Assembly: GCA_036382775.1 (NCBI GenBank)
Contig: DASVHD010000007.1
Location: 1-64,000 of the forward strand
DNA length: 64,000 nt
Direction of reading: 5' to 3'
Origin: a bacterium
GTDB lineage: Bacteria > Hydrothermota > Tepidihabitantia > SM23-42 > JAOAFX01
Shown here: piece by piece, positions 9,558 to 63,097 of the stretch
How positions within the stretch are numbered: position 1 is the stretch's first letter
Layout of the letters: every line of letters begins with the position of its first letter
Notes under the pieces: generated by a model
The model's input: only the letters and a program-made list of their open reading frames with translations
What the model was told of the DNA's origin: nothing
Databases searched by the model: none
Made by a program: the position numbers and the translations under genes

Positions 9558-9592
9558 AGACATTAAAGGTTTCGCCCTTTGTGGCGAAAATA

Positions 9593-9643
9593 CACCCCCT
9601 CCTTTTTCCTCCCCCCTCGAGGGGGAGGGTAAGGGTGAGGGGG
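9593..9643. repeat. C-rich/G-rich inverted repeat
   Basis: Copy of the dispersed cctcccccctcgaggggg-type palindrome (core ctcgag) directly upstream of the ribosome-binding site of the next gene. Near-identical core to the copy at 10893-10945 inside that gene. An open frame across it is an artefact. Confidence 0.8.
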
Positions 9644-9655
9644 AAGGAGGTTTCT

Positions 9656-45543: not shown

Positions 45544-45595
45544 ATCGTAACTTTATGCAGTGTTCTATAATTCAAAAGGCAGAAGCAGGATTATA

Positions 45596-46963: not shown

Positions 46964-47004
46964 TATTATTTTGTTCGTGTTGAATAATTATACATAGTTT
47001 AAAA

Positions 47005-47027
47005 TTTCAACACAAAAAGTGTTGAAA
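47005..47027. promoter_or_regulatory. Candidate activator-binding inverted repeat
   Basis: Perfect 9-bp inverted repeat tttcaacac-aaaaa-gtgttgaaa, centred at 47016, roughly 145 bp before the start expected from the sigma-54 promoter: the usual place of an NtrC-type enhancer site. Half-site-like words (gtgttgaa near 46978; caatg / cattg at 47041-47067) flank it. It is AT-rich with no downstream T-run, so it is not a convincing terminator of the regulator gene. Confidence 0.65.
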
Positions 47028-47133
47028 AAACATACTTTTACAATGTTGTTTAAAAAATTTACATTGAAAATATTCTGATGTATAATCAATCGTCATAATG
47101 TTTTGAAAAAACGATACTTTTTATTAATGCCCT

Positions 47134-47149
47134 TGGCACAGAATTTGCA
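47134..47149 (+). promoter_or_regulatory. Sigma-54 (RpoN) promoter
   Basis: TGGCAC (47134-47139), 5 nt, TTGCA (47145-47149): an exact match to the -24/-12 consensus, with GG and GC at the canonical spacing. Predicted start near 47160, 5 nt before the ATG at 47165. Confidence 0.88.
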
Positions 47150-47164
47150 TAAAATAATCATGTT

Positions 47165-47389
47165 ATGAAGTGCCCTTTTTTAGAAGAGATCATGATGCAG
47201 TATTGTACTGCATGTGAAGTAAAAAAAATGCTCCCAAGCAATCGCTTGGTTACACCGAGTCCATGCGAAAGCGATTATCATGAATGCCCGGTATTTATAG
47301 ATTTTTATGAAAATAAAAAGAAAAAGAAAATGCAGGATATCGTCGGGAAAGAAGAAGACAACGATGCTCCAGAAGGACCATCACTGTGA
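47165..47389 (+). CDS. Small Cys-rich protein at the head of the Hdr operon
   Basis: 74 residues. MKCPFLEE...YCTAC...VKKMLPSN...SPCESDYHECPVF: five Cys in a spaced pattern, followed by a basic then acidic tail. Resembles a small Cys-containing module found near redox/sensor genes in anaerobes, as far as I recall; no name is established. Possibly a metal- or redox-sensing accessory of the downstream kinase (inference). GTGA overlap with the next gene. Confidence 0.65.
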   Translation: MKCPFLEEIMMQYCTACEVKKMLPSNRLVTPSPCESDYHECPVFIDFYENKKKKKMQDIVGKEEDNDAPEGPSL

Positions 47390-48531
47390 TACAGGGAACG
47401 GATAAGACCGAACCAGCGCGGATCATGGTCATCGATGACGAGGCGGTGATATGCGATGCCTGCGCTCAGATTCTGACCGATGAAGGATATGAGGTGGTAA
47501 CCGCGAATAACGGAATTGCCGGATTGGAAAAAATGAAGGGATCAAAACCCGATGTTGTCTTCGTTGACCTGAAGATGCCGGGTATGGGCGGGCTCGAAGT
47601 GCTTGACCGGATCAGGGGGATCGACAAGAACATCGTCACCGTGGTGATCACCGGCTACGCGACCATAGAATCTGCCGTCGATTCAATGAAGCATGGCGCT
47701 TTAGAATTCCTGCCCAAACCGTTCACGCCTGAGGAATTGGCCATTATCACCTGGCGGGCGGTCGAGAAACATCGGATCACGGTTGAAGCCGAGCGGTTGA
47801 AAAATGAGAAAGAGCATATGCGGCAGAATTTCATATCGCTGGTCTCGCATGAATTGAGAACACCGCTGGTCGCGGTTATCCAGTACCTTGAGGTCCTGAG
47901 CGGCGGGATCCTGGGAACGATGCCGCCGGAGCAAGAGAAGGTGATCACCCGGATGAAGATCCGGCTGAATGAACTGCTTTTGCTAGTCAACCGCTGGCTG
48001 AAGTTTGCCCGGATCGAGGAGACGGATGTTCGGGATAGCTTCACAAAATTCAACTTGAAGCCGGTGATCGAAGAATCCCTGGAACTCGTAAAACCACTCG
48101 CCGCGGAAAAAAAAATCGAACTCGTGTCCTCTGCCGGCGCTGACATTAATACCGTATTTGGCGACCGCGAAATGATAAAAGAGGTGATCACGAACATCAT
48201 GAGCAACGGTATTAAATATAACCACGAGGGGGGACGTTTATCGGTCGAGACAATGCAAACTGCAGACGCAGTGATCATTGACATCACCGATACCGGGATC
48301 GGGATACCGGACGAGGAACTCGCCCGGGTTGGCGATGAATTTTACCGGACCAAGCGTGAGGGTCTAGCTGCCGGTTCCGGCCTTGGTCTGGCGATCGCCA
48401 AAAAAATTCTGGATATCCATGGAGGCCGGCTGGAGATCAAGAGCCGGCTCGATCTGGGCAGCACATTCAGCATTGTTCTGCCTAAAGCACGTGAAAAAAA
48501 TGAAATTGTATCAGAAAGGAGCGCATCATGA
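47386..48531 (+). CDS. Receiver-histidine kinase hybrid
   Basis: 381 residues: N-terminal receiver (VVFVDLKMPGMGG with phospho-Asp), then HisKA (SHELRTPLVAVIQYLEVL, phospho-His) and HATPase (TNIMSNGIKYN, DTGIGIPDEE, GSGLGLAIAKK). No membrane segment, so it is cytosolic. The receiver-first order suggests control by another kinase. Starts at a GTG overlapping the upstream stop; overlaps the next gene by ATGA. Confidence 0.9.
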   Translation: MIQGTDKTEPARIMVIDDEAVICDACAQILTDEGYEVVTANNGIAGLEKMKGSKPDVVFVDLKMPGMGGLEVLDRIRGIDKNIVTVVITGYATIESAVDSMKHGALEFLPKPFTPEELAIITWRAVEKHRITVEAERLKNEKEHMRQNFISLVSHELRTPLVAVIQYLEVLSGGILGTMPPEQEKVITRMKIRLNELLLLVNRWLKFARIEETDVRDSFTKFNLKPVIEESLELVKPLAAEKKIELVSSAGADINTVFGDREMIKEVITNIMSNGIKYNHEGGRLSVETMQTADAVIIDITDTGIGIPDEELARVGDEFYRTKREGLAAGSGLGLAIAKKILDIHGGRLEIKSRLDLGSTFSIVLPKAREKNEIVSERSAS

Positions 48532-49319
48532 AAAAAGTGAAACTCTTGTTGATCGATGATGACAATGACTTTTGTCAAGCCAACAAGGTTATTTTCGAAC
48601 AGGCAGGATACGAGGTTATGATGGCGAAGAACGGCCGGACCGGGCTCGACTTGGTCCACAAGGAAAACCCAGACCTGATCGTTCTGGACGTCATCCTGCC
48701 GGATATCAATGGTTTCTCCATTTGCCGGGAGCTCAAGGAAGATCCCAAGTACTCAGTGATACCGATCCTGCTGATGACCGCCCTGGGTTCAAAACCGGGC
48801 AGTTATACCGAGAACATCGCTGCCCAGCACAAGGCGGACGCGTACCTTGAAAAACCATCGTCGCCTCAGGTCATTCTGGAAAAAGTGCGTGGTCTTCTAG
48901 CAACGGTTAAAACCGCGCCCAAACAGGAGCGCAGCATGCCGAAGATCCTGCTGGTCGATGACGATCCTGATTTTCTTGAAGCCACGCGGCAGATCCTGGC
49001 CGCGCACCGGTTCGAGGTCATCACGGCTAAGGACGGCGACGAGGGCATTGCCAAGGCAAAATACGAGAAGCCTGACCTGATCGTGCTGGATGTTATAATG
49101 CCCGGCAAGGACGGTTACACGGTGTGCTTTGAACTGCGCAAGAACCAACAGACCCGCCCCATACCGATAATCATGCTGACCGCGATCGGACAGCAGCTTT
49201 CCAGGCCGGAGTACGGCGTGGAGATCGCGATCGACCATCTCGCCGATGATTTTATTGATAAACCGGTCGAAATCCCGGCGCTGCTTAAGAAGATCGAAAA
49301 GCACCTGATGTTCAGATAG
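48528..49319 (+). CDS. Tandem receiver protein without output domain
   Basis: 263 residues made of two CheY-like receivers: first with LLLIDDDNDF and VLDVILPDING, second with ILLVDDDPDF and VLDVIMPGKDG. Both keep acidic pockets and phospho-Asp; the conserved Lys is seen in LEKPSSP and IDKPVEIP. Probably a phosphorelay adaptor between the preceding kinase and another target. Confidence 0.88.
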   Translation: MKKVKLLLIDDDNDFCQANKVIFEQAGYEVMMAKNGRTGLDLVHKENPDLIVLDVILPDINGFSICRELKEDPKYSVIPILLMTALGSKPGSYTENIAAQHKADAYLEKPSSPQVILEKVRGLLATVKTAPKQERSMPKILLVDDDPDFLEATRQILAAHRFEVITAKDGDEGIAKAKYEKPDLIVLDVIMPGKDGYTVCFELRKNQQTRPIPIIMLTAIGQQLSRPEYGVEIAIDHLADDFIDKPVEIPALLKKIEKHLMFR

Positions 49320-49368: not shown

Positions 49369-49908
49369 ATGCGATGGAAAGCTGGGTCTAATGACCAAGA
49401 GAAAACCATGAAAAGCCAAGAACAATCGGTTACACCAAATTTCAAATATGAAGTGGCAAAAGAACCCGGCGGCGAGAATATAAAAGCCTGCTATGCTTGC
49501 GGCATCTGCACGGCGAGCTGTCCTATTCGAGAGATCGATACGCGATATAATCCGCGGCAGATCATAAGGATGGTCCTGCTGGGCATGAAAGACCGGGTTT
49601 TGAAGAACGATTTCATCTGGTTTTGTTCAACCTGTTATTCTTGCTCAGAACGGTGCCCGCAGGGGGTACGGTTCACGGATGTCATGAACGCGATCAAGAA
49701 CATGGCCGTAAAAGAAGGGTTTATTCATCCCGCGTTCGTTCAACAGGTCGAGCTTTTAAAGCAATTCGGCCGCCTGTATGAGATCGATGAGTTCGACAAC
49801 AACAAAAGAGTCTCGTTCGGATTGCCAAAGGTTGAAAAGACCAAGGGATTCACGCGCAAACTTTTGGAAATCACAGGATTGGACAAGATCCTGGCGAGGA
49901 AAACCTAA
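49369..49908 (+). CDS. hdrC: Heterodisulfide reductase subunit C-like protein
   Basis: 179 residues with two [4Fe-4S] motifs, CYACGICTASCP (Cys41, 44, 47, 51) and CSTCYSCSERCP, plus the HdrC-typical NPRQIIRMVLLG. Transfers electrons between HdrA and the catalytic HdrB. The ATG at 49369 has gaaagggg upstream; another ATG at 49408 is possible. HdrB follows one base after the stop. Confidence 0.9.
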   Translation: MRWKAGSNDQEKTMKSQEQSVTPNFKYEVAKEPGGENIKACYACGICTASCPIREIDTRYNPRQIIRMVLLGMKDRVLKNDFIWFCSTCYSCSERCPQGVRFTDVMNAIKNMAVKEGFIHPAFVQQVELLKQFGRLYEIDEFDNNKRVSFGLPKVEKTKGFTRKLLEITGLDKILARKT

Positions 49909-49909
49909 C

Positions 49910-50788
49910 ATGAAGTACGCACTATTCCCGGGTTGTACCGTATTAGGCAGGGGCAGGAACTATGAAATGGCGGCACGGGCAGTGGCGAAGGAGACCGGAC
50001 TTGAGTTTACGGACATCGCCGATTTCGAATGCTGCGGGTTCCCGATCAAGTCAGTTCACCAGGAGAGCGCATTTTTCCTGGCCGCGCGCAACCTGCTGGC
50101 CGCCGAGAACGAAGATCTCGATGTCTGCACGCTGTGCAGTGCCTGCACAAGCTCACTGACCGAGGTCAGCAAGCATCTTTCCGATGATTTCCCGGAAAAG
50201 ACCAGGACCCTCGCGCTGCTCAAGAAAGCCGGGTTCGATTACCGACTCAGCAGGAATATCGTAGTCAAACATTTTGTCAAGATCCTGTACGAGGATATCG
50301 GGATCCCGGAGATCTCGAAGTTGATAAAGAAAAAACTTACCAATCTCAAGGTCGCGGCGCACTACGGATGCCATTACCTGAAACCAACCGACATTTATCA
50401 AACTCCAGAAGATCCGGAAAATCCAAAATCCCTCGATGAACTGATCAGCGTCACGGGCGCGGTGCCTTTGGACTACAACGAGAAAACGCGATGCTGCGGT
50501 GCCAGCCTCCTGGCGATCAGCGAGGACCTGGCGTATTCCGTTGCCCGCCCGAAAATGACCGCGCTCAAGCGGAATTCAGTGGACGCAATGGTCCTGATGT
50601 GTCCATTCTGCAGCGTCATGTTCGATGATAATCAGCGGAAGATGGAACAAAAATTCAATGAAGTGTTCACCATCCCGGTCCTGTACTATCCTCAACTGCT
50701 TGGTCTGGCGATGGGCTTGGATGAAAAAGCTCTGGGCTTGAGGATGAACAGGGTGTCCACAAAAGCATTGATGGAGAAGATTAGATGA
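49910..50788 (+). CDS. hdrB: Heterodisulfide reductase subunit B-like protein
   Basis: 292 residues. Two CCG domains (DFECCGFPIKSVHQ and TRCCGASLLAISED) together with CTLCSAC, HYGCHYLKP and MCPFCSVMFD: the ligands of the two non-cubane clusters of HdrB where disulfides are reduced. The natural disulfide in a non-methanogen is unknown. Start at the ATG one base after hdrC; a longer frame overlapping hdrC is not credible. Confidence 0.92.
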   Translation: MKYALFPGCTVLGRGRNYEMAARAVAKETGLEFTDIADFECCGFPIKSVHQESAFFLAARNLLAAENEDLDVCTLCSACTSSLTEVSKHLSDDFPEKTRTLALLKKAGFDYRLSRNIVVKHFVKILYEDIGIPEISKLIKKKLTNLKVAAHYGCHYLKPTDIYQTPEDPENPKSLDELISVTGAVPLDYNEKTRCCGASLLAISEDLAYSVARPKMTALKRNSVDAMVLMCPFCSVMFDDNQRKMEQKFNEVFTIPVLYYPQLLGLAMGLDEKALGLRMNRVSTKALMEKIR

Positions 50789-50878: not shown

Positions 50879-51748
50879 ATGAGTAACGGAAAGGTTGGCG
50901 CGGTGATGGTTGTCGGCGGCGGGATCGGCGGCATACAGGCAGCGCTGGACCTGGCAGATTCCGGATTCAAGGTTTATCTGGTCGAGAAGGGTCCAAGCAT
51001 AGGTGGGGTCATGGCTCAGCTCGACAAGACATTCCCCACCAACGACTGCGCGATGTGCATCCTGGCGCCGAAGCTGGTCAGTGTCGCGAGACATCCGAAC
51101 ATAAAGATCATCACTAACGCCGAGATCGAAAAACTCGGCGGTGAATCCGGCAATTTCGTCGTGACCGTGCAGAAAAAACCGCGGTTTGTTGATGAGGATA
51201 AGTGCACGGGCTGCGGGCTTTGCATGGCGAATTGCCCGGTAATGCAGATCGCATACGCTGATATCGACAAGGAGACAATACAGCTGCAACCCGAGGATTT
51301 TGCCAAGGTCCAGGGGATCATCAGTGATTACAAGTCCAAGGAAGGCAGCCTTATGCCGATCCTCCAGAAGATAAACGCAACGTACAATTACCTGCCGATG
51401 GACTTGCTGCGCTATGTCGGTAGGGAATTGGATATACCTTTAAGCCATATATATAACATCGCGACGTTCTACAACGCTTTTAGCCTCGTGCCGAAGGGAA
51501 AGTATACGATCGCGCTCTGCCGCGGTACCGCATGCCATGTCCGCGGTTCGGGCAGATTGCAGGAAAAGGTCGAACAGGAGCTGGGCATCAGTGACGGTGG
51601 GACGACCGAAGATTTTTTATTCTCGTTGCAGACCGTCCGGTGTATCGGGTGTTGCAGCATAGCACCAGCAGTTCGCATTGGTCGTAATACCTACGGTAAT
51701 GTCAGGGTAAATGAGATCGGCAATATATTGAGAAAGTACAGACTATGA
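50879..51748 (+). CDS. Fusion: N-terminal part of HdrA FAD domain + NuoE-like protein
   Basis: 289 residues. Residues 1-121 match the front of the HdrA flavin domain: Rossmann [38 protein letters not shown] (cluster Cys) and first ferredoxin motif [12 protein letters not shown] (109-120). The sequence then leaves HdrA and, from about residue 140, becomes a NuoE-type thioredoxin-like [2Fe-2S] domain with Cys214/219 and Cys255/259 (CRGTAC and CIGCC). The missing rest of HdrA is in the protein at 54942. Good Shine-Dalgarno (gcggagg). ATGA overlap with the next gene. Confidence 0.88.
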
Positions 51749-54700
51749 AGCTAAAGAACAAAGAAGACCTGCAAAAGCTTAAGGATAGCGGGATAAAGAA
51801 GCTCTATCCGGACAAGGTGAGGATCAGTGTCGGGATGGCGACATGCGGACTGGCGACCGGCGCCGAACAGGTCTACAATTATTTCAGCAAGGAGATCGAC
51901 TCTAACGGCAAGTTTAACCTTGTCCCGGTCGGGTGCATTGGGTTTTGCCAGAAAGAACCGCTGGTCGATATCCTGATCCCTGGCTTACCGCGGGTGACTT
52001 TTTCCAAAGTTAATGAAGAAAAGGCTAAACTCATCTTTGATGATCTGAAAAAAGACCATATAAACAATAGTATCGCAGCCTGGCGTTTTGATGAAGATGA
52101 ATGGTTGATATTGAACGAGAAGAAGTCTCTCGTCGCCCGTGATCTACCGGACGCGGTCCGGTCGATAGAACTCTATAACAACATCGCGTTCTTCAAAAAA
52201 CAGCTCAAGATCGCCCTGCGAAATTGCGGTTTCATTAATCCCGAAGATATCGAGGAGTACATTGCGCGCGGCGGCTATTTTTCTCTGATGCAGGTACTGA
52301 AGGGATATTCGGCCGACCAGGTGATCGGCGATGTCAAGAAATCCGGACTGCGGGGGCGCGGCGGCGCGGGTTTTCCGACAGGTTTGAAGTGGGAATTGTG
52401 CCGGAAATCAAAGGGAGAGACAAAGTACATAATCTGCAATGCTGACGAGGGAGACCCCGGCGCATACATGGACCGGAGCATCCTTGAAGGAGACCCGCAT
52501 TCGGTCATTGAAGGCATGGTGATCGGCGCCTATGCCATCGGAGCGCAAGAGGGCTACATTTACGTGCGCACTGAATACCCGCTGGCGATCGAACGGTTCA
52601 AAAAAGCGATCAGCGATGCTGAGGAAAGTAACCTGCTGGGTGACAACATTCTGGGCACTAATTTCAATTTCAAGATAAAGATGGCGCAGGGTTCGGGCGC
52701 ATTTGTCTGCGGCGAGGAAACATCTCTGATAAGCTCGATCGAAGGGAAGTCGCCGGAACCAAGGTTAAGGCCGCCATTCCCGGCCGAATCCGGATTATGG
52801 GGAAAACCGACGAATATAAACAATGTGGAGACCTGGGCGAATATCCCGGTCATTATCGCCCGCGGTGGGGATTGGTTTTCCCGGATCGGAACGGAAAAGA
52901 GCAAGGGCACGAAGGTGTTCTCGCTGGTCGGAAAAATAGAAAATACAGGGTTAATAGAAGTGCCGATGGGGATGAAGCTGGATGAGATCATCGAGATGGG
53001 CGGCGGTATTCCCAAAAACCGAAAGTTCAAAGCCATTCAGACGGGCGGACCTTCAGGCGGCTGTCTGCCTTTAAGCCATATCAATCAGCCTGTCGATTAT
53101 GAAAAACTTGCCGAAGCCGGATCGATCATGGGATCTGGCGGCATGATCGTAATGGATGAACGCACCTGCATGGTGGACATCGCAAGATATTTCCTTGAGT
53201 TTCTCAAGGATGAGTCCTGCGGCAAGTGCTCGTCGTGCCGTGAAGGAACCCGGGAGATGTATGAGATCGTTGACCGCATTTCCAGGGGAGAAGGCAAGGA
53301 AGGCGATATCGATCTCCTGGAGAACCTGGGTAAGGTAGTGAAATCGGCTTCAATGTGCGGGCTGGGGCAGACCGCGGCCAATCCGGTCCTGTCCACGATA
53401 AGGTATTTCAGGGATGAATACGAAGAACATATCAAGCATAAAAGATGCCCGGCGATCGTTTGCAAGGAGATCGTTTCGTCCCCTTGCCAGCATACCTGTC
53501 CAATAGGCACCGAGGCTCAATTATACGTGTCGTATATCGCCAGCAGAAAGTTCGAGCAGGCGCTCGAGGTGATAACCAGGGACAACCCCATGCCGGCGTC
53601 GGTGAGCCGCATCTGTCATCATCCGTGCGAAAGAATGTCGTGCCGCGCCGGTGATATCGGGGAGCCCATAAATATCCGCGGTCTGAAGAGGTTCGTCATC
53701 GATTGGGCAACCGCAGCGAAGAAAAATATCGAGCCTCCAGGCAAAACGCCTGCCACCGGCAAGAAAATAGCCATTGTTGGCGCTGGACCGGCGGGCTTGA
53801 CAGCCGGTTATTACCTTTGCCTTAAAGGTCACAAGGTCACAGTTTTCGACTCGGAGCAAAAACCCGGCGGCATGTTATTGGTCGGAATCCCCGAGTACCG
53901 GCTTCCCAGGCCGGTGCTGGATTTCGATATCCAAAACATGAAAAAAGCAGGACTGGAGATTAAAAATGGCGTGAGGATCGGCGAGCAAGTTAGTATCGAC
54001 GAGCTGCTGAAACAGGGCTACGACGCGGTGTTCGTAGCGGTCGGGGCTCATGAAAGCATCAAGATGGGTGTTGTGGGAGAAGACCATCCGCGCGTTTTGC
54101 CGGGCATGAAATTCCTGCGGGCGGTCCATACCGGTCAGAAGGTCGATCTGGGCAACAAGGTATGCGTGATCGGCGGTGGTAATTCCGCGATCGATGCTGC
54201 CCGTGTTGCCCTGAGACTGGGATGCGAGGTGGAGATCTATTACCGCCGCACCAGGTCTGAAATGCCCGCTTTTCCTGAAGAGATCGAAGGGGCACTCGAA
54301 GAGGGCGTCAAGATCCAGTACCTTGTTGCGCCCCAAAAGATCGCGGAGCAGAACGGCAAGCTTCTTTTTACGTGCTCACGCATGGCGTTGGGCGAGATCG
54401 ACAGCTCGGGCCGGCGCAAGCCGGTTCCCATACCGGGCTCTGAATTCACCACTGGATTCGACACGATAATCGCAGCGGTCAGCGAGCAGCCGCAGACCGG
54501 GTTTCTTGCTAAACACGCTAAACTAACCAAATGGGGAACGGTGGACGTGAATGCGGAGACCCTTCAGAGCAGCCATCCCCAGATCTTCGCGGGCGGCGAC
54601 GCGATCCGCGGGCCGAGCACGGCGATCGAAGCGATCCGCGACGGCAAACTGGCCGCTGAATCGATCGATAGTTATTTGAAAAAAGCTGCGTGGATGCGGA

Positions 54701-54945
54701 AACATGCGGTGACACGGCCGTCGATCTATGTCGAGCCGGTTGCCATGACCGAAGTGGAGATGGCCGATTACCAGCGCGTCAAAATGCCCGGCCTGGCAGT
54801 ATCCCCCCGGATCAATAAATTCCCCGAGATCGATAATGGTTACACCGAGGAAATGGCGATCAAGGAAGCCCGGCGGTGTTTGCATTGCGATCTGGAGACC
54901 ACGCAGGGTCAGGAATTTGTGAAAAAGTGCAAGGAGCGAAAATGA
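51745..54945 (+). CDS. Fusion: NuoF-like NADH/FMN subunit + NfnB/GltD-like flavoprotein
   Basis: 1066 residues. Residues 25-110: thioredoxin-like [2Fe-2S] domain in which one of the usual four Cys is replaced by Gly (VGMATC; Cys34, Cys64, Cys68 remain). Then Nuo[16 protein letters not shown] (NADH/FMN), [14 protein letters not shown], and cluster ligands [13 protein letters not shown]. From about residue 570 a GltD/NfnB-like part: [30 protein letters not shown] motif [14 protein letters not shown], second nucleotide site [16 protein letters not shown] and [19 protein letters not shown]. Likely NAD(P)H- and ferredoxin-linked flavin chemistry. Overlaps both neighbours by ATGA. Confidence 0.9.
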
Positions 54946-57900
54946 CGATAAAACTCCATATTGATAAAACGCCGGTCGAGATCGAAAAGGGGAAAACGAT
55001 CCTTGAGGCAGTAAAAAAGCTGAATATCGATATCCCGACGCTGTGCTATCATAAGGCATTGAGTCCCTACGGCGCATGCAGATTATGCGTGGTGGAGATC
55101 AACAGGGCCGGCAGGAAGACCATCCAGGCTTCGTGCCTGTATCCGGCTGACAACGATATCGAGGTCGTCACCAATTCGCCCGAATTGCAGAATATCAGGC
55201 GCACGATGATCGGTCTGATCATGGCGCGAGCTCCGAAATCACAACAGATCATTGACGTGGCGCGGAAATTGGGAGTACAGGAGAGCCCGTATCATATCAA
55301 AGACGAAGATTGCATGCTCTGCGGTCTTTGTATCCGCATGTGCAAGGAACGAATGGACCGAAGCGCGATCGGTTTTTCAAAACGCGGCGATAAAAGGAAG
55401 ATCGCGCCACCTTTCGAGGTGAACTCAAGGACCTGCATGGTGTGCGGCGCATGTTACGCGGTATGCCCAACAGCCAATGAACGGTTGAAGAAGATCAGCG
55501 ACAAGCCGTCGAGATCGATCCTCGATGAGTTCGATGAAAGACTCAGGCCAAGGCCGGTTATAAGGATACCATTTCCCCAGGCGGTTCCCAATCTCGCAAT
55601 AATCGATAAAGAAAAATGCATTCATTTCCTGACCGACAAATGCAAGGTCTGCGAGGAGTTCTGCGAGGCCAAGGCGATCAAGTATGACCAGCAGGAAGAG
55701 GTCATGGACCTGAACGTCGGTTCCATTGTTCTGGCTCCTGGTTTCGATGAATTCGACGCCAAAAGAAAGAGCGAGTATGGTTATGGCCGCCATGACAACG
55801 TGGTGACCTCAATGGAGTTCGAACGCATCCTCTCGGCTTCTGGTCCTTTCCAGGGTCATATCAAGAGACCGGGCGATCTCAAGGAACCGCAGAGGATCGC
55901 GTTTATTCAATGCGTCGGTTCCCGCGACCCGCAGGCAGGCGCGAGCTACTGTTCTTCGGTATGCTGTACCTACGCGATCAAGGAGTCGATCATCGCCAAG
56001 GAACACGCCAAAGGAGGACTGGATACGACGATCTTCTACATGGATATAAGGACCTTTGGCAAGGGTTTCGAGAGTTATTACCAACGGGCAGAAAAAGAGT
56101 ACGGCGTGCGGTTCGTGCGGGCCGGGGTCTCGAAGATCGACCAGGATCCGGTCACCAGAAACGTTATCATCCATTACGAGAGCGAACAGGGTGAAATAAA
56201 AGAGGAAGAGTTCGATATGGCGGTGCTGTCGGTCGGATTGGTCCCTAAGGATGACATGAAGGCACTTTCGAAAAAACTGCGCGTTAACCTGAACGAGCAT
56301 GGATTCTGCAAGACCAGCGAATTCCTGCCCGTCGACACGATCCGGGACGGTATCTATGTCTGCGGCGCGTTCGCAGGTCCCAAGGACATTCCTGAGACCG
56401 TGACGCAGGCGTCGGCGGCTGCAGGTGAAGCGATGACAAATCTAGCCAGCGTCAGAAACACACTTGTGTCAAAGAAACAGTACGCCAAGGAGCTTGATGT
56501 CAGCGCACAGGAGCCGCGGATCGGCGCTTTCATCTGCCACTGCGGTATTAATATCGGCGGTTACGTTGATGTCAAAGCGGTCATGGAATATGCCAAAACC
56601 CTGCCCGGTGTCGTCTATGTGGAGAACAATCTCTACACCTGTTCTCAGGATACCCAGAAAAAAATGGTAGAGATGATAAAAGAGCATCAGCTGAACCGGG
56701 TGGTCGTAGCATCATGCACACCGCGGACACACGAGCCGCTGTTCCGGGAAACGATCCGGGAAGCAGGGTTGAATCCCTATTTGTTCGAGATGGCGAATAT
56801 CCGTGACCAGTGTTCCTGGATCCACATGCAGGAACCAGCCGAGGCGACGGTCAAGGCAAAGGACCTGGTGCGGATGGCTGTCGCCAAAGCACGCCTTTTA
56901 ACGACGCTCAAGCGTGTCGAGCTCGATGTCACGCAAAAGGCGTTGGTGATTGGCGGCGGCGCGACCGGTATGGTATCGGCTTTGACCCTGGCGGATCAGG
57001 GTTTTGAGGTTTTCCTCGTAGAGCGCGAGCCTGACCTGGGCGGTCACATGCGGCACATTTACCACACGATCGAAGGCCGGAATGTCGCTGGTTATCTCGA
57101 CCGTCTCACCGCGAACGTAAAAGCCCACAAGCATATCAAACTGTTCACCAGGGCTGAGGTCGAATCGCTTAAAGGGTTCGTCGGCAACTACGAATCCCGG
57201 ATAAAAAGGGCCGATGGCGGCGTGGAAACAGTGGTCCACGGCGTGGTCATCGTAGCTACGGGGGCGGATGAACACATCACCACCGAGTACATGTACGGGT
57301 CTAATGAGCGGGTGGTTACCCAGCGGGAGTTCGAAAAACTGCTGAACGATCCGGCGGCACTGGAAAAAAAGAATGCCAAAAACATCGTCATGATCCAGTG
57401 CGTTGGGTCCCGTGACGACAAACACGAATACTGCAGCCGGATCTGCTGCTTCCAGGCCGTAAAAAATGCCCTGCACATGCTGGAGCAGGACCCGCAGGCA
57501 AATGTCTATGTTCTGTACCGCGACGTCAGGACCTACGGCCTGCGCGAGGACTATTACCGCAAGGCGCGCGAAGCCGGGGTCGTTTTTATCCGGTATGATG
57601 ATACGTCCAAACCGGTCCTTGAATCAAGCGGTGGAAAACTGCGTTTGACCGTCAACGAGCCGATCCTGCGCGAGACGATCGAGGTCATGCCCGACCTGAT
57701 CGTGCTGTCCGCGGGCATCGAGCCGCGCAAGGACAACGCCATACTTGCCAAAATGCTCAAAGTACCGCTGAACAGCGAAGGGTTCTTCCTGGAAGCGCAT
57801 GTTAAATTAAGACCTGTCGATTTCGCCACCGAAGGCGTTTTCGTGGCGGGAATGGCACACAGTCCGAAAGGGATTGACGAGGCGATAAGCCAGGCAAAGG

Positions 57901-58190
57901 CCGCCGCGGCACGGGCGACCACAATCATCGCGCATAAAAAATATTACGCGGAAGCGACCGTGTCATTCGTGAACGAGGACCTTTGCGCGGGCTGCGGCGT
58001 GTGCAGCGCTCTCTGTCCTTACGAAGCCATCGAGATAACGACTAAGGATGACAAACGGCTGTCCAAGGTAAATGAGGCGTTATGCAAGGGTTGCGGAACG
58101 TGCGTGGCCGCCTGTTCGTCCGGGGCCATGGGGCAGTACGGGTTCACCAAGCAACAGGTCATCGCGATGGTCGATGCGCTGAAAGAGTGA
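54942..58190 (+). CDS. Fusion: NuoG-type ferredoxin + C-terminal HdrA + complete second HdrA
   Basis: 1082 residues. Order: NuoG/HydA-type [2Fe-2S] domain (CYHKALSPYGACRLC), two [4Fe-4S] motifs (CMLCGLCIRMC, CMVCGACYAVCP), then HdrA from just where the upstream protein stops (IRIPFPQAVPNLAIIDKEKC, EYGYGRHDNVVTSMEFER, FIQCVGSRDPQAG, PKDIPETVTQASAAAGEA). Next a whole HdrA: FICHCGINIGGYVDVKAV, VVASCTPRTHEPLF, Rossmann VIGGGATGMVSALTLADQGF, second FIQCVGSRD-like block, and two terminal [4Fe-4S] motifs (CAGCGVCSALCP, CKGCGTCVAACS). Probable electron-bifurcating flavin hub. Confidence 0.9.
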   Translation: MTIKLHIDKTPVEIEKGKTILEAVKKLNIDIPTLCYHKALSPYGACRLCVVEINRAGRKTIQASCLYPADNDIEVVTNSPELQNIRRTMIGLIMARAPKSQQIIDVARKLGVQESPYHIKDEDCMLCGLCIRMCKERMDRSAIGFSKRGDKRKIAPPFEVNSRTCMVCGACYAVCPTANERLKKISDKPSRSILDEFDERLRPRPVIRIPFPQAVPNLAIIDKEKCIHFLTDKCKVCEEFCEAKAIKYDQQEEVMDLNVGSIVLAPGFDEFDAKRKSEYGYGRHDNVVTSMEFERILSASGPFQGHIKRPGDLKEPQRIAFIQCVGSRDPQAGASYCSSVCCTYAIKESIIAKEHAKGGLDTTIFYMDIRTFGKGFESYYQRAEKEYGVRFVRAGVSKIDQDPVTRNVIIHYESEQGEIKEEEFDMAVLSVGLVPKDDMKALSKKLRVNLNEHGFCKTSEFLPVDTIRDGIYVCGAFAGPKDIPETVTQASAAAGEAMTNLASVRNTLVSKKQYAKELDVSAQEPRIGAFICHCGINIGGYVDVKAVMEYAKTLPGVVYVENNLYTCSQDTQKKMVEMIKEHQLNRVVVASCTPRTHEPLFRETIREAGLNPYLFEMANIRDQCSWIHMQEPAEATVKAKDLVRMAVAKARLLTTLKRVELDVTQKALVIGGGATGMVSALTLADQGFEVFLVEREPDLGGHMRHIYHTIEGRNVAGYLDRLTANVKAHKHIKLFTRAEVESLKGFVGNYESRIKRADGGVETVVHGVVIVATGADEHITTEYMYGSNERVVTQREFEKLLNDPAALEKKNAKNIVMIQCVGSRDDKHEYCSRICCFQAVKNALHMLEQDPQANVYVLYRDVRTYGLREDYYRKAREAGVVFIRYDDTSKPVLESSGGKLRLTVNEPILRETIEVMPDLIVLSAGIEPRKDNAILAKMLKVPLNSEGFFLEAHVKLRPVDFATEGVFVAGMAHSPKGIDEAISQAKAAAARATTIIAHKKYYAEATVSFVNEDLCAGCGVCSALCPYEAIEITTKDDKRLSKVNEALCKGCGTCVAACSSGAMGQYGFTKQQVIAMVDALKE

Positions 58191-58198
58191 GGTGCGTG

Positions 58199-58603
58199 AT
58201 GAGCGAGTTCAAACCCAAAGTGGTTGTTTTCTGCTGCAACTGGTGCTCTTACGCGGGCGCTGACCTGGCGGGCGTGTCGCGTTTGCAGATGCATCCGAAT
58301 TTCAGGATCATCCGGACCATGTGTTCGGGGCGGATCGAACCAGAGTTCGTTCTGCGCGCTTTCAAGAATGGTGCCGACGGGGTATTGCTGACCGGCTGCC
58401 ATCCTGGCGATTGTCATTATATTTCTGGGAACTACAAAGCATTGCGCCGGTATCAGGGAATGAAGGTCCTGCTGAAGGAATTCGGCATCAACGAGAACCG
58501 GTTCAGGCTGGAATGGGTCTCGGCCGGCGAAGGCATCAAATTCCAACAGGTCATAAACGACTTTATTGATGAAGTCCAGCGGTTGGGCCCGCGGCAGCAA
58601 TAA
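58199..58603 (+). CDS. mvhD: MvhD/FrhD-like [2Fe-2S] electron-transfer subunit
   Basis: 134 residues. Cys-rich motif FCCNWCSYAGADLAG, then RTMCSGRIEPEFVL and LLTGCHPGDCHYISGN, all typical of the delta subunit that links HdrA to hydrogenase or other electron donors. It ends the sigma-54 operon. Start ATG after gaggtgcgtg; 8 bp behind the HdrA fusion. Confidence 0.93.
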   Translation: MSEFKPKVVVFCCNWCSYAGADLAGVSRLQMHPNFRIIRTMCSGRIEPEFVLRAFKNGADGVLLTGCHPGDCHYISGNYKALRRYQGMKVLLKEFGINENRFRLEWVSAGEGIKFQQVINDFIDEVQRLGPRQQ

Positions 58604-58864: not shown

Positions 58865-60775
58865 ATGATAAAGATCTCCCTGAGGACAAAACTGCTGGTC
58901 AGCCTGGTGTCGGTGATTCTGATCAGCGGGGTGATCAGCACCGTCGCCGGCGTCAGGTTGATCGGCAACGATATCATCAAACAGGCGCAGGACAAGGTCA
59001 GGACCGACCTTAATTCAGCGCGTGAGATATACAATGAACTGCTAAAAGACGCCAAGAATATCACCCGGTTCACGTCAACACGCGTGTTGGTGCGAGATGC
59101 GGTCGTGAAAAATGATCGGCAGTACCTGGTCAATGTCCTTGCCCAGGTGCTGAAGAGCGAGAACCTCGACATCCTTATCGCTCTGGACGCCGGGGGACGC
59201 GTGATTACCCGGGCGAATAACCCGTCGGTTTACGGCGATGACCTGTCGTCCAATGCCTTGCTGCAGCGCGTTATTAATGACCGGCTGTCGACCGCGACCA
59301 CGATCCTGTTGGCCGAGAACCAGCTGCAGCGCGAGGGCGACGCGCTGGTCAGACAGGCAGCCATCGAGATTCTGCACACACCGATGGCGAAATACCAGCG
59401 GACCGGCATCGAGAAGAACGGGATGGCGGTCGCAGCGGCAACGCCCGTGTTCGATGACGACCAGAGAATGGTGGGTATCATCTACGGCGCCAAATTGCTC
59501 AACCACAATTATGATCTGGTCGATCAGGTGAAGAACACGGTGTTCCAGGACGAGAAATACAAGGGTAAGGATATCGGCACAGCGACGATCTTTCAAGGCG
59601 ACTTGAGGATATCGACCAATGTCAAGAACGAGGACGGCAGCCGGGCGATCGGCACGCTTGTTTCCCAGAGCGTTTACGAAGCCGTGCTGGAAAGGGGAGA
59701 ACGCTGGATCGCGCGGGCATTCGTCGTCAATGACTGGTATATTACGGCTTACGAACCGATCCGGGATATAAACAATAATGTGACGGGGATTCTCTATGTC
59801 GGGATCCTTGAGCAGAAGTACACGGACATGCGAAACAATGTGATCCTGACGTTCCTCGGGATAACCCTGCTGGGCATGGTCGTGGTCTTTTTCATATCCT
59901 TCATGATCGCACAGGGGATCGTGAGGCCGGTCGCGAGACTGGCGACCGCCGCCCATCATATCGCCGATGGCGATTTTTCCTACTCGACCAACATCCAGTC
60001 CAGCGATGAGATCGGCGAACTGGGTAAAGTCTTCAATTTCATGGTGACCTCGATCAGCGAGCGGGACGCCCAGATCAGGGAACTGGCGCAGCTAAAGATC
60101 GCGGAAGCAGAACGGCTGGCCATGATCGGTCAGCTGGCTGCCGGCGTCGCGCATGAAATAAATAACCCGCTGACGGGTATCATCCTGTACTGCGATCTGG
60201 TCCTGCGGTCGCTACCCAAGGGTGATCCGAAGCGGACGAACCTGGAAAAGATCAACGCCGAAGCGCTGCGATGCAAGAATATCGTCAGGGGTTTGCTCGA
60301 CTTCGCGCGCCAGAAAAAACCCGAGATCAAGGATTGTTCGGTCAACCAGTTGCTGGAAGCTTCTCTGTCCCTGATCAAGAGCCAGGCGCTTTTTCTTAAC
60401 ATCACGATCGACAGGATACTGGATGAGACGCTGCCCATGGTCAAGGTCGATCCTTCGCAGATCCAGCAGGTCTTCATGAACATTATAATCAATGCTGGGG
60501 AGGCAATGGAAGGGAAGGGCGAGCTGTCCGTGAGGACCGCGCTTTCGAAAGACAGAAAATTCGTGGAGGTCACGTTCGCCGACACGGGACCGGGCATAAA
60601 AGAAGAGAACATCAAGAAAATATTCGAGCCGTTCTTTACGACCAAGGAAGCGACCCATGGCGTGGGACTCGGCTTGAGCATAAGCCATCGCATCATCGAG
60701 GATAATGGCGGAAAGATATCGGTTACGAGTGAGATCGGCAAGGGAACGACTTTCGTGATCCGCCTGCCTTGCTGA
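58865..60775 (+). CDS. Membrane sensor histidine kinase (Cache-HAMP-HisKA-HATPase)
   Basis: 636 residues. First membrane helix (LLVSLVSVILISGVISTVAG), a large periplasmic Cache-like sensor (about 32-325, with VFDDDQRMVGIIYG and NDWYITAYEPI), second helix (ILTFLGITLLGMVVVFFISF), HAMP (IAQGIVRPVARLATAAHHIA), dimerisation helix with phospho-His in AAGVAHEINNPLTGI, and HATPase boxes (NIIINAGEAM, DTGPGIKEEN, GVGLGLSISHRI). The HEINNPL type commonly pairs with NtrC regulators, so the regulator at 45596 is the obvious candidate partner. Signal unknown. Confidence 0.92.
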   Translation: MIKISLRTKLLVSLVSVILISGVISTVAGVRLIGNDIIKQAQDKVRTDLNSAREIYNELLKDAKNITRFTSTRVLVRDAVVKNDRQYLVNVLAQVLKSENLDILIALDAGGRVITRANNPSVYGDDLSSNALLQRVINDRLSTATTILLAENQLQREGDALVRQAAIEILHTPMAKYQRTGIEKNGMAVAAATPVFDDDQRMVGIIYGAKLLNHNYDLVDQVKNTVFQDEKYKGKDIGTATIFQGDLRISTNVKNEDGSRAIGTLVSQSVYEAVLERGERWIARAFVVNDWYITAYEPIRDINNNVTGILYVGILEQKYTDMRNNVILTFLGITLLGMVVVFFISFMIAQGIVRPVARLATAAHHIADGDFSYSTNIQSSDEIGELGKVFNFMVTSISERDAQIRELAQLKIAEAERLAMIGQLAAGVAHEINNPLTGIILYCDLVLRSLPKGDPKRTNLEKINAEALRCKNIVRGLLDFARQKKPEIKDCSVNQLLEASLSLIKSQALFLNITIDRILDETLPMVKVDPSQIQQVFMNIIINAGEAMEGKGELSVRTALSKDRKFVEVTFADTGPGIKEENIKKIFEPFFTTKEATHGVGLGLSISHRIIEDNGGKISVTSEIGKGTTFVIRLPC

Positions 60776-60842: not shown

Positions 60843-61289
60843 ATGGAAAAAGTCATTAAGATCCTGAAAAAATATCCGACCGGTCAGGCCAGTATCATAC
60901 AGATCCTGCAAGAGGTGCAAAGTGAATATAATTGCCTGCCCAAGGACGTATTGACCTATATCGCTCGAAGAGTGCATGTGCCTTTGAGCAAAATGTATGG
61001 AATCGCGACATTTTTTGCAGCTTTCAGCCTAGAACCACGAGGGCGGCATTGCCTGACCGTATGCATGGGAACGGCTTGCCACGTACGCGGGGCACCGGAA
61101 GTACTGCTCTGTTTGGAGGATAAGCTTGGTCTCGCGGTCGGTGAGACCAGCAAAGACCGTGAATATACACTGGAAACGGTAAATTGCCTGGGCGCGTGCG
61201 CGCTCGCGCCAATCGTAGTTGTGGACGGCAAATATCATGGCCAGGTTTCGGTACGAGCCGTGGATAAGATCGTCAAGGAAGTGAAGTGA
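60843..61289 (+). CDS. NuoE/HndA-like [2Fe-2S] subunit
   Basis: 148 residues. Thioredoxin-like [2Fe-2S] domain with Cys74, Cys79, Cys115 and Cys119 (CMGTAC and CLGAC), preceded by the helical part (YNCLPKDVLTYIARRVHVPL, GIATFFAAFSL). Passes electrons between the NuoF-like subunit and partners. Paralogue of the C-terminal domain of the protein at 50879. Overlaps nuoF by four bases (GTGA). Confidence 0.93.
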   Translation: MEKVIKILKKYPTGQASIIQILQEVQSEYNCLPKDVLTYIARRVHVPLSKMYGIATFFAAFSLEPRGRHCLTVCMGTACHVRGAPEVLLCLEDKLGLAVGETSKDREYTLETVNCLGACALAPIVVVDGKYHGQVSVRAVDKIVKEVK

Positions 61290-63097
61290 GAATTTATCGC
61301 CACCTGCTGGTCTGCGCCGGGACCGGCTGCGTAGCCTGCGGTTCATACGAAATAAGGTCGGCGCTTGTCGCGGAGATAGCGAAGCGGGGACTGCAGCGGG
61401 AGATTGAAGTCGTTGCGACCGGCTGCAATGGATTCTGCGAACGCGGTCCGATTATCGTAGTCCAGCCCGATGACATATTTTATCAGCATGTTTCTGTCAG
61501 CGACATACCGCACCTCGTCGAAGAACATTTCATCAACCATTGTCCGGTAACAAGGTTGATGTACATGCCGCCAGGCGGAAAGGAACCGGTTCCCAGGATG
61601 TCCGAAATCGGTTTCTTCAAGTATCAGCGTCTTTTCGTGCTGAGGAACCGCGGCCGGATCGATCCCGAGAACATCGAAGAATACATCGCTTTTGACGGTT
61701 ACTTTGCAATGGAAAAGGCGCTGACGAAGATGACCGCGCCGGAGATAATAAACGAGATCATTGCATCTGGTCTGAGGGGCCGGGGAGGAGCGGGTTTTCC
61801 TACCGGCCGGAAGTGGCAGATGTGCCGTGATTCCACCGGCGACCGCAAATATCTGATCTGCAACGGCGACGAGGGCGATCCGGGTGCCTTTATGGATAGA
61901 AGCGTCCTGGAGGCAGACCCACACTCGGTCATTGAAGGTATGATCATCGGCGCCAAGGCGATCGGCGCCCAGAAAGGGTATATCTACGTGCGGTCCGAAT
62001 ATCCGCTGGCGGTAAAAAGGATCATGCGGGCGATCGAACAAGCGGAAGAGGCTGGTTTGATCGGCAATGACATTCTGGGGACCGGTTTTGACTTTCACTT
62101 GGAAATCGTGAAGGGCGCCGGAGCTTTTGTATGCGGGGAAGAGACGGCACTCATGGCGACCATTGAAGGCAAGGTCGGAAGACCCCGACCGCGGCCTCCT
62201 TACCCGGTCATAAGCGGATTGTGGGGCAGGCCGACGAATATCAACAACGTCGAGACCTGGGCCAATGTGCCTCAGATCATATCAAAAGGCGCTGCGTGGT
62301 TCTCGGAGATCGGCACGGAAAAGAGCCGGGGAACCAAGATCTTCTCGTTAGTCGGCAAGATCAACAACACCGGATTGGTGGAAGTGCCAATGGGCATGAC
62401 GCTGAGATCGATCATTTACGATATCGGTGGCGGTATACCGCAAAACAAACAACTAAAGGCTGTTCAGACCGGCGGTCCATCAGGCGGGTGCATACCCCGG
62501 GAAATGATCGATCTGCCGATCGATTACGAAAGTCTGACCCAGGCCGGATCAATGATGGGTTCGGGCGGCATGATCGTAATGGACGAAGATACGTGCATGG
62601 TTGATATTGCCAAATATTTTCTGAATTTCACCCAGCAGGAATCATGCGGCAAATGCCCGCCCTGCCGTATAGGAGTAAAGCAAATGGTCAAGGTTCTGGA
62701 ACGGATCACCGAAGGCCGCGGACTTGCAACCGACGTTGATCAGCTTGTATCGATAGCAGCGAATATCAAGACGACTTCGCTGTGCGGTCTGGGTCAGACC
62801 GCACCTAACCCGGTACTTAACACGATCAATTATTTCCGCAACGAGTATGATGCGCACATCAATGACAAGCGCTGTCCCGCGCTAGTGTGTAAATTGCTAA
62901 TATCATACGTGATCGATAAGGAGCTGTGCACGGGCTGCGTCGCGTGTTCGAAGAGTTGTCCCAGCAAGGCGATCACCGGTAAACCAAAGGGAACTTATGT
63001 GATCGATCAAAAAAAATGCAATCGCTGCGGCATCTGTATCACGGTTTGTCCGTCGAAATTTGGCGCAGTCAAAAAGGTGACGCCGGCGGTAACGTGA
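61286..63097 (+). CDS. NuoF/HndC-like NADH-binding FMN subunit
   Basis: 603 residues, GTG start overlapping the upstream stop. N-terminal thioredoxin-like [2Fe-2S] domain with all four Cys (VCAGTGC; ATGCNGFC), NADH/FMN core ([29 protein letters not shown]), cluster motif ESCGKCPPCRIGV, and a C-terminal two-cluster ferredoxin (CTGCVACSKSCP, CNRCGICITVCP). This architecture is shared by soluble NAD-linked hydrogenases and formate dehydrogenases. Close paralogue of the NuoF part at 51745. GTGA overlap with the next gene. Confidence 0.94.
   Translation: MRIYRHLLVCAGTGCVACGSYEIRSALVAEIAKRGLQREIEVVATGCNGFCERGPIIVVQPDDIFYQHVSVSDIPHLVEEHFINHCPVTRLMYMPPGGKEPVPRMSEIGFFKYQRLFVLRNRGRIDPENIEEYIAFDGYFAMEKALTKMTAPEIINEIIASGLRGRGGAGFPTGRKWQMCRDSTGDRKYLICNGDEGDPGAFMDRSVLEADPHSVIEGMIIGAKAIGAQKGYIYVRSEYPLAVKRIMRAIEQAEEAGLIGNDILGTGFDFHLEIVKGAGAFVCGEETALMATIEGKVGRPRPRPPYPVISGLWGRPTNINNVETWANVPQIISKGAAWFSEIGTEKSRGTKIFSLVGKINNTGLVEVPMGMTLRSIIYDIGGGIPQNKQLKAVQTGGPSGGCIPREMIDLPIDYESLTQAGSMMGSGGMIVMDEDTCMVDIAKYFLNFTQQESCGKCPPCRIGVKQMVKVLERITEGRGLATDVDQLVSIAANIKTTSLCGLGQTAPNPVLNTINYFRNEYDAHINDKRCPALVCKLLISYVIDKELCTGCVACSKSCPSKAITGKPKGTYVIDQKKCNRCGICITVCPSKFGAVKKVTPAVT

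Follow-up and report, generated by a model that had tools for sequence, protein, structure and literature searches.

What is encoded by a bacterial operon in which parts of a heterodisulfide reductase subunit HdrA and parts of an NADH dehydrogenase share the same chains? The operon lies in the window, by which we mean the whole 64,000 nt of DNA analysed here (contig DASVHD010000007.1). A sequence-only reading had claimed that one HdrA is split over two genes, each half fused to a different part of an NADH module.

Gene content of the locus

The genes are arranged in the order hdrC-hdrB-A-F-B-mvhD, where F is the NuoF/BfuB-GltD gene. The genes and the domains of A and B are:

49408..49908, + strand: hdrC-like gene, two [4Fe-4S] (TIGR03290, 2.7e-36)
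49910..50788, + strand: hdrB-like gene, two CCG domains with both non-cubane cluster motifs (TIGR03288, 3.5e-72; Pfam CCG x2)
50879..51748, + strand: protein A, HdrA N-terminal half plus BfuC/NuoE, 289 aa
50900..51241, + strand: A residues 8–121, HdrA 145–258 (5ODC numbering; gapless phmmer alignment to 5odc_A)
51296..51742, + strand: A residues 140–288, BfuC/HydC/NuoE thioredoxin-like [2Fe-2S] domain (PF01257, 1.5e-46)
51745..54945, + strand: BfuB/NuoF plus GltD/NfnB-like domain, 1066 aa, between both HdrA halves (Complex1_51K, NADH_4Fe-4S, Fer4_20, Pyr_redox_2; B2 ligands Cys/His/Cys/Cys)
54942..58190, + strand: protein B, BfuA plus HdrA C-terminal half plus second HdrA, 1082 aa
54942..55478, + strand: B residues 1–179, BfuA-type [2Fe-2S] plus 2x[4Fe-4S], without the His-Cys3 cluster (type 2 BfuA)
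55521..56456, + strand: B residues 194–505, HdrA C-half, from residue 261 (5ODC)
56508..58187, + strand: B residues 523–1082, second HdrA, which has an Fe-S domain at its N terminus and a ferredoxin at its C terminus
58187..58603, + strand: mvhD/FlpD-like [2Fe-2S] protein (PF02662, 1e-54; GTGA overlap with B, alternative ATG at 58199)

All reading frames are intact, and the gene for A overlaps F, and F overlaps the gene for B, by an ATGA (51745–51748 and 54942–54945). HdrB, with both of its non-cubane CCG cluster motifs, and HdrC are present, as in an HdrABC. The 3.2 kb that had been noted between the halves is taken up by the nuoF-gltD gene, which belongs to the same operon.

The halves of one HdrA lie on two chains

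Protein A had been described as beginning with HdrA from the Rossmann motif to the first ferredoxin motif, and this is what the gapless alignment shows: residues 8–121 contain the FAD-binding Rossmann motif, Cys60 (equivalent to Cys197 of HdrA) and ferredoxin motif 1 (51203–51235). HdrA then continues in B almost exactly where A leaves it, as had also been proposed. A ends at HdrA residue 258 and B resumes at 261 (B 194–446 aligns to 5odc_A 261–508 by phmmer), which leaves a gap of two residues and no overlap. The cut lies between both cysteine motifs of the inserted ferredoxin domain of HdrA.

The seam was rechecked against a profile built from 70 unsplit HdrAs. On this profile A proteins end at position ∼117–131, including the FAD motif and ferredoxin motif 1, and the match of B proteins begins at ∼92–103. 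The sole cause of this early start is the resemblance of the last [4Fe-4S] motif of BfuA to motif 1 of HdrA. We assign the BfuA motif to the NuoG-like part, since B 5–178 aligns end to end with 9mqx_A, the BfuA of a bifurcating aldehyde oxidoreductase. The true resumption of HdrA is the conserved “EFD/EYD...PFPQAVP”. Measured against both 5odc_A and the profile, the halves are thus complementary and non-overlapping.

The cofactor ligands are conserved on both chains. Among 27 A proteins C57, C60, C109, C112, C115 and C119 are invariant and the FAD motif is nearly so. The HdrA C-half of B carries ferredoxin motif 2 (C226, C234, C237, C241), the cluster ligands C324/C337/C341/C342, E294 (equivalent to E356) and K347 (equivalent to K409); motif 2, E356 and K409 are invariant among B proteins. 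The second HdrA of B has its own dinucleotide motif. It had been taken for a complete HdrA, which it is not: the inserted ferredoxin domain (profile positions ∼96–174) and the equivalent of Cys197 are both absent.

The fused NADH module resembles bifurcating enzymes

The remainder of A does belong to the NuoE family and the opening domain of B is NuoG-like, as the sequence-only reading had it. The two are closest to BfuC (HydC) and BfuA (HydA) of electron-bifurcating enzymes, respectively, and not to complex I. The top structural matches of the BfuC domain are electron-bifurcating enzymes, and its [2Fe-2S] cysteines (C214, C219, C255 and C259 of A) are invariant. Complex I (NuoEFG) was considered as the source of the inserted module and rejected, the best matches being bifurcating HydABC/Wor-Bfu enzymes.

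The intervening BfuB has the FMN domain and the B1 [4Fe-4S] cluster (PF01512, 9.8e-48; PF10589, 4.3e-34). The window has the B2 ligands (Cys, His, Cys, Cys), in a sequence that includes TCMVD, and so do all other BfuBs of split loci whose sequence is complete in that region. This ligand set, including the His, is typical of bifurcating BfuB and is not found in non-bifurcating homologues. The C-terminal CxxCxxCxxxC pair (B3/B4) is present in nearly all other split loci and absent from the BfuB of the window, which has GltD with its own Fer4_20 domain in that place. Because GltD replaces the 2x[4Fe-4S] ferredoxin of BfuB, the canonical Bfu core appears incomplete in the window. The region of the N-terminal [2Fe-2S] cluster (B5) is thioredoxin-like with a weak Pfam match (0.00056) and, by eye, only three of the expected cysteines in an atypical motif.

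Genes for CBS-ATPase, DRTGG, PHP and HATPase proteins are associated with hydABC operons. In Cloacimonadota, KSB1 and Bipolaricaulota such hydrogenase-type accessory genes lie inside the cluster, which likewise counted against a complex I source.

Distribution and linkage of the two chains

Protein A was found at 26 loci in many phyla of Bacteria and Archaea, with B just downstream at 19 of them. At six of the remaining seven the sequence ends there. One locus, L013, has A but no B within 10 kb. One split locus (L126) is without NuoF. A search of 147 genomes of the window's phylum gave 21 with both proteins, one with only A, two with only B and 123 with neither (Fisher p 4e-22, to be read as no more than an indication because the genomes are related). 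The exceptional cases run into the ends of contigs. Since HdrA is cut at the identical residue in many bacterial and archaeal phyla, two machines appear to have been welded together rather than to have met by chance.

The sequences are metagenome-derived, and the operon of one relative (G016) contains scaffold gaps, so we considered whether two loci had been joined by an error of assembly or binning. Independent genomes from many phyla show the same joints, and at two loci (L108, L109) these lie in gap-free stretches of single-contig assemblies. This recurrence effectively refutes an artefact, which the sequence-only reading had also argued against.

Unsplit tandem HdrAs, with the N-half joined directly to the C-half, are common. 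At two split loci (L033, L109) it is a single, non-tandem HdrA that is cut, with the N-terminal domain on A and the C-terminal ferredoxin on B; there the pair therefore makes up one whole HdrA. These loci bear on the alternative that the halves form no HdrA at all, A being a NuoE with a tail for another partner and B using its second HdrA alone. The dinucleotide motif of the second HdrA is in keeping with such a reading, but B has no second HdrA as a fallback at these two loci. Nor would it account for the invariance of Cys197 and the four motif-1 cysteines, the near-invariance of the FAD motif, the invariance of motif 2, E356 and K409, or the nearly perfect co-occurrence of A and B. We therefore regard it as unlikely. 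Complementary alignments and a conserved, linked pair uphold the claim of one HdrA divided between different NADH-module parts, and with it the claim that the FAD site of the first HdrA would need rebuilding from two chains.

Origin of the split

The simplest history is that a bfuC-bfuB-bfuA (hydCBA-like) cassette entered hdrA as a whole, because the halves flank the cassette in the correct order and orientation. The sequence-only reading had instead proposed reciprocal domain exchange, with recombination trading segments between hdrA and nuoE/nuoG-type genes. Two fusion joints are indeed present, but a single insertion yields the order HdrA-N, BfuC, BfuB, BfuA, HdrA-C around an uninterrupted BfuB, and an exchange would require two coordinated events. 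Bam clusters have unsplit HdrA beside unsplit BfuCBA, and GltD is found inserted in-frame at the same place, which further argues against the exchange; we consider it distinctly unlikely.

The split arose more than once, in at least two HdrA backgrounds, since one version splits a single HdrA and the trees reject one origin. In AU tests on the C-half tree a single origin of all splits was rejected (p 3e-8; 1e-8 without L033 and L021). The test did not reject a group, chosen post hoc, that joins the other splits to tandem HdrAs with a GltD insert (p 0.43). In the same tree GltD and BfuCBA occupants of the insertion site mix within clades. The N-half alignment offers too few columns for a resolved tree. 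The BfuB tree hints, with weak support, at two cassette sources; a few of its rows labelled “other” (L137, L143) sit within split loci by coordinate. The GltD of the window's NuoF fusion and the type III insert fall into separate groups, which does not support the former as direct source of the latter.

Comparison with known systems

The same parts (HdrC/HdrB, tandem HdrA, MvhD, BfuC, BfuB and BfuA) are found in Bam-Bfu, which comprises the subunits BamD-BamI of class II benzoyl-CoA reductase (PMC9304861). There HdrA is unsplit and BfuC, BfuB and BfuA are separate genes after mvhD, whereas in the window HdrA is split around them. Bam also has a tungsten AOR-family catalytic subunit (BamB), whereas the window's genome (95.6% complete) has no AOR-family match (zero for AFOR_C). 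In common with the HydABC-like Bfu family, the window encodes homologues of BfuC, of BfuB, which has the B2 ligands, and of type 2 BfuA. None of the members listed for that family is Hdr-linked with a fused, split HdrA; the only one with an HdrA is Bam-Bfu, where it forms a subunit of its own (PMC9304861).

Type II tandem HdrA (two thioredoxin-reductase domains; HdrA3/4 of ANME) likewise has two HdrA modules (PMC9012536, PMC12054007). The complementary N-terminal domain and Cys197 of that type are seen here too, with Cys197 on A (C60) and the N-terminal domain on the second HdrA, which lacks Cys197. Type II is one continuous polypeptide, whereas here the first module is on two chains with a three-gene module between. 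In type III HdrA/HdrA9-11 a pyridine-nucleotide module, the NfnB-like GltD, sits in the same inserted ferredoxin domain (PMC9012536, PMC12054007), but in-frame on one chain; the insert in the window adds stop and start codons and breaks HdrA in two. The window's GltD is fused to NuoF and not to HdrA, which sets it apart from type III. The FlxABCD-HdrABC NADH dehydrogenase/Hdr is, as described in literature cited in PMC12054007, likewise an NADH-linked soluble HdrABC.

A proposed NADH-linked Hdr complex

We think it probable that the operon encodes one soluble complex, with a Bfu-type NADH module built covalently into a two-chain HdrA. In the proposed mechanism the bfuC-bfuB-bfuA cassette would have entered hdrA in the loop between both [4Fe-4S] motifs of the inserted ferredoxin domain, leaving HdrA as two chains, A and B. 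The bifurcating FAD site would be rebuilt from the dinucleotide motif of A and E356/K409 plus the C-terminal FAD motif of B, and the two-cluster ferredoxin from motif 1 of A and motif 2 of B. If dimeric HdrA is a guide, the second HdrA of B would also have its N-terminal cluster completed by Cys60 of A (Cys197). From the gene anatomy, complementarity, conservation and linkage, which were observed directly, we infer the physical assembly, the composite cofactors, the electron path and the reaction. The best reading is a cytosolic NADH-linked Hdr complex, for which the composite site, the direction in which electrons flow and a disulfide as substrate are predicted, and it is plausible that NADH oxidation, bifurcation and disulfide reduction are joined in one machine, as had been suggested.

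A refinement, compatible with this complex, places two bifurcation sites in series: electrons from NADH and reduced ferredoxin would be combined at the Bfu FMN-FeS site, giving mid-potential electrons that would be bifurcated anew at the composite HdrA FAD. The B2 ligands of the BfuB in the window and in the other complete split-locus BfuBs, the conservation of E356/K409, and the same proposal made for Bam-Bfu (PMC9304861) point this way, but in the window GltD replaces the B3/B4 ferredoxin and the B5 motif is atypical. We hold it as a tentative possibility.

We lean towards seeing here a widespread class of obligate two-chain HdrA, in which a bifurcating FAD and as many as three Fe-S clusters would be shared by chains that are also part of another bifurcating machine (Bfu). 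The site of insertion would then be a recurrent plug-in port for swapping electron-donor modules (free ferredoxin, GltD, BfuCBA). The case also shows that a flavin domain in two pieces can persist over long evolution and that one loop took in different modules repeatedly. The inserted ferredoxin domain is thought to be the site of low-potential electron delivery to free ferredoxin in methanogen HdrA. Since fusions show which parts touch, the NADH module is predicted to dock on this domain. How these parts dock when unfused, as in the megadalton benzoyl-CoA reductase, is to our knowledge not resolved, and the prediction makes their arrangement directly testable. The annotation of fragments otherwise called NuoE, NuoF or partial HdrA is corrected, and with it a complex otherwise missed in metabolic reconstructions of uncultured phyla.

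DsrC, DsrA and CdhC gave zero matches in the window's genome, and DsrC was dropped as a candidate partner on account of its absence. A PADLOC search gave nothing relevant. Single-chain structure models were of middling quality (pLDDT 75 and 68). The ferredoxin motif of A could instead pair with the BfuA ferredoxin of B.

Organization of the split HdrA operon

One HdrA of the Hdr operon in the window is divided between two proteins, A and B, with a NuoF gene between them. The genes are as follows:

49408-49908, + strand: hdrC, first gene of the operon
49910-50788, + strand: hdrB, second gene
50879-51748, + strand: A, HdrA fragment and NuoE-like domain
51745-54945, + strand: nuoF-gltD, between A and B
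54942-58190, + strand: B, NuoG/HydA-like ferredoxin part, HdrA fragment and second HdrA
58187-58603, + strand: mvhD, last gene

Four-base overlaps link the last four genes. Two-component regulators lie on both sides of the operon (45560-49319 and 58865-60775), comprising a sigma-54-type response regulator, a receiver-kinase, a double receiver and a sensor kinase. Receiver genes are also found immediately upstream of A in another genome of the phylum, G016 (L107).

The two HdrA halves are complementary

When aligned to the solved Methanothermococcus HdrA (5odc_A), residues 8-121 of A correspond to 145-258 with zero gaps, and HdrA resumes in B at residue 194, corresponding to 261. The halves are thus complementary and non-overlapping, as the sequence-only reading had proposed. 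They seem to overlap at one point only, the final [4Fe-4S] motif of BfuA in B, which is similar to HdrA motif 1; we assign it to the BfuA part because B 5-178 aligns continuously with 9mqx_A, from a bifurcating tungsten aldehyde oxidoreductase. The cut separates the two cysteine motifs of the ferredoxin domain that interrupts the HdrA thioredoxin-reductase fold, and it falls at the same site in 26 of 26 A proteins when these are placed on a profile of 70 unsplit HdrAs taken from other loci. The second HdrA of B had been described as complete, but against the unsplit profile it lacks the inserted ferredoxin and Cys197, and therefore is not a complete HdrA.

The motif-1 cysteines 109, 112, 115 and 119 are invariant in 27 A proteins, as are Cys57 and Cys60. 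By the gapless alignment Cys60 equals Cys197, which in the methanogen HdrA dimer extends to the partner's N-terminal cluster (PMC9012536). Invariant in B are the motif-2 cysteines 226, 234, 237 and 241, the cluster ligands 324, 337, 341 and 342, and E294 and K347. Counted along the 5odc_A alignment, the latter two correspond to E356 and K409, the named signature residues of flavin bifurcation (PMC12054007). The natural reading, which we infer from sequence, is that the two halves would form a functional composite HdrA. AlphaFold models of A and B (pLDDT 75 and 68, from shallow alignments) retrieved BfuC and HdrA, respectively, in a fold search; being single chains, they are uninformative on the A/B joint.

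The inserted module and its proposed function

The NuoE domain of A, the NuoF region and the N-terminal part of B are most similar to BfuC, BfuB and BfuA, respectively, of electron-bifurcating enzymes. The BfuA part of B has clusters of the A1, A2 and A4 types and lacks the His-Cys3 cluster, as in type 2 BfuA (PMC9304861). The NuoF of the window, like each of the other split-locus NuoFs that are complete, carries the B2 ligands, among them the His reported as the mark of a bifurcating BfuB. A GltD domain replaces the BfuB C-terminal ferredoxin in the window and in L111 and L127, two fully read relatives. Four loci (L015, L016, L018, L036) have genes for a CBS-domain ATPase, DRTGG, PHP and HATPase between nuoF and B, and in L013 such genes follow nuoF, an arrangement like that of hydrogenase operons; the complex here has no hydrogenase.

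A GltD insert in HdrA has been proposed to block ferredoxin, letting NADH use the port (PMC12054007). By analogy, the Bfu module would exchange electrons with the port in the HdrA ferredoxin domain, possibly in either direction, and may use NADH by itself or together with ferredoxin. A disulfide-type reaction of the complex is likely, since HdrB keeps both CCG domains. DsrC, DsrA, CdhC and AOR gave zero matches in the window's genome, which speaks against a context of sulfate reduction, acetyl-CoA-synthase acetogenesis or benzoyl-CoA reduction.

Distribution of the split

A scan of genome contigs found the A fusion in 26 loci, from Stahlbacteria, Armatimonadota, Cloacimonadota, KSB1, Desulfobacterota, Chloroflexota, Fibrobacterota, Thermoplasmatota, Aminicenantes, Sumerlaeota, Spirochaetota, Bipolaricaulota and others. 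The pairing with B recurs: B lies downstream on the same strand in 19 of these loci. In six of the remaining seven the sequence ends too early to show B; in L013 it is long enough, and no B is nearby. In the window's phylum, A occurs in 22 and B (full-length matches, by our reading) in 23 of 147 genomes, which are not independent observations; 21 have both, one A only and two B only. In all three of the latter the operon runs into a contig border. Two loci taken from single-contig assemblies, L108 and L109, contain no N, and L111 (G012) shares the architecture of the window, including the NuoF-GltD fusion. In G016 (L107, L122), supposedly a single-contig assembly, the operon parts lie far apart with runs of N inside both pieces, a layout that is likely a scaffold misjoin.

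Origin of the split

Unsplit HdrAs are common, both tandem (45 full ones) and single. Bam-type clusters (L052, L060, L072, L076, L090, L046), which have an AOR-family gene upstream, encode HdrCB, tandem HdrA, MvhD, BfuC, BfuB and BfuA separately; hdrA and bfuCBA therefore coexist side by side, both of them intact. A single insertion of the latter into the former would yield the window's gene order. The split has two versions. In the window and most loci the cut falls within the first of two tandem HdrA modules; in L033, L109 and L126 it falls within a single HdrA, whose N-terminal domain is carried by A and whose C-terminal ferredoxin is carried by B. In L126 (1707-4761, G070) the genes of both halves adjoin with no NuoF gene between.

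A tree of the C-terminal halves rejected one clade holding all splits, and the L033 split HdrA clusters with its own unsplit neighbour (99/97). Split and GltD-inserted HdrAs together were compatible with one clade after removal of L033, L021 and those GltD rows that are of the single type or have no N-domain. The two kinds are intermixed inside strongly supported clades, which suggests that the ferredoxin-domain loop has served repeatedly as a port and can exchange its occupant.

Relation to described HdrA types

Tandem fusion of HdrA, HdrA with a GltD insertion, and Bam-Bfu with HdrA as a separate subunit have already been described; we found no report in the openly accessible literature of a split HdrA or of HdrA joined to NuoE or Bfu. 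The window's genome has nearly all described HdrA types plus the split one. On contig C47 (L094, 4955-8302) a type III HdrA, in which GltD interrupts the ferredoxin domain of a single HdrA, adjoins hdrC and hdrB. On contig C41 (83990-94000; L095, L096) two genes, one for a tandem HdrA and one for an HdrA-MvhD protein, have TGA in frame precisely where the Cys197 codon would be, probably encoding selenocysteine, whereas A of the window has Cys there. In most of the Bam-type clusters named above the tandem HdrA also has a stop codon at this position, likewise a likely Sec; L046 has a sense codon. One MAG labelled Ramlibacter (L084) holds a Bam-like set too, perhaps through contamination or transfer.

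A second BfuC-BfuB set (60843-64000 of the window, and L093) is followed beyond the window, to the contig end, by a BfuA-like protein and NfnA-like and NfnB-like genes; together these possibly represent a Sporomusa-type Nfn-Bfu. The protein encoded at 9581-11149 has a T9SS type A sorting domain, which hints at a host of the FCB group.
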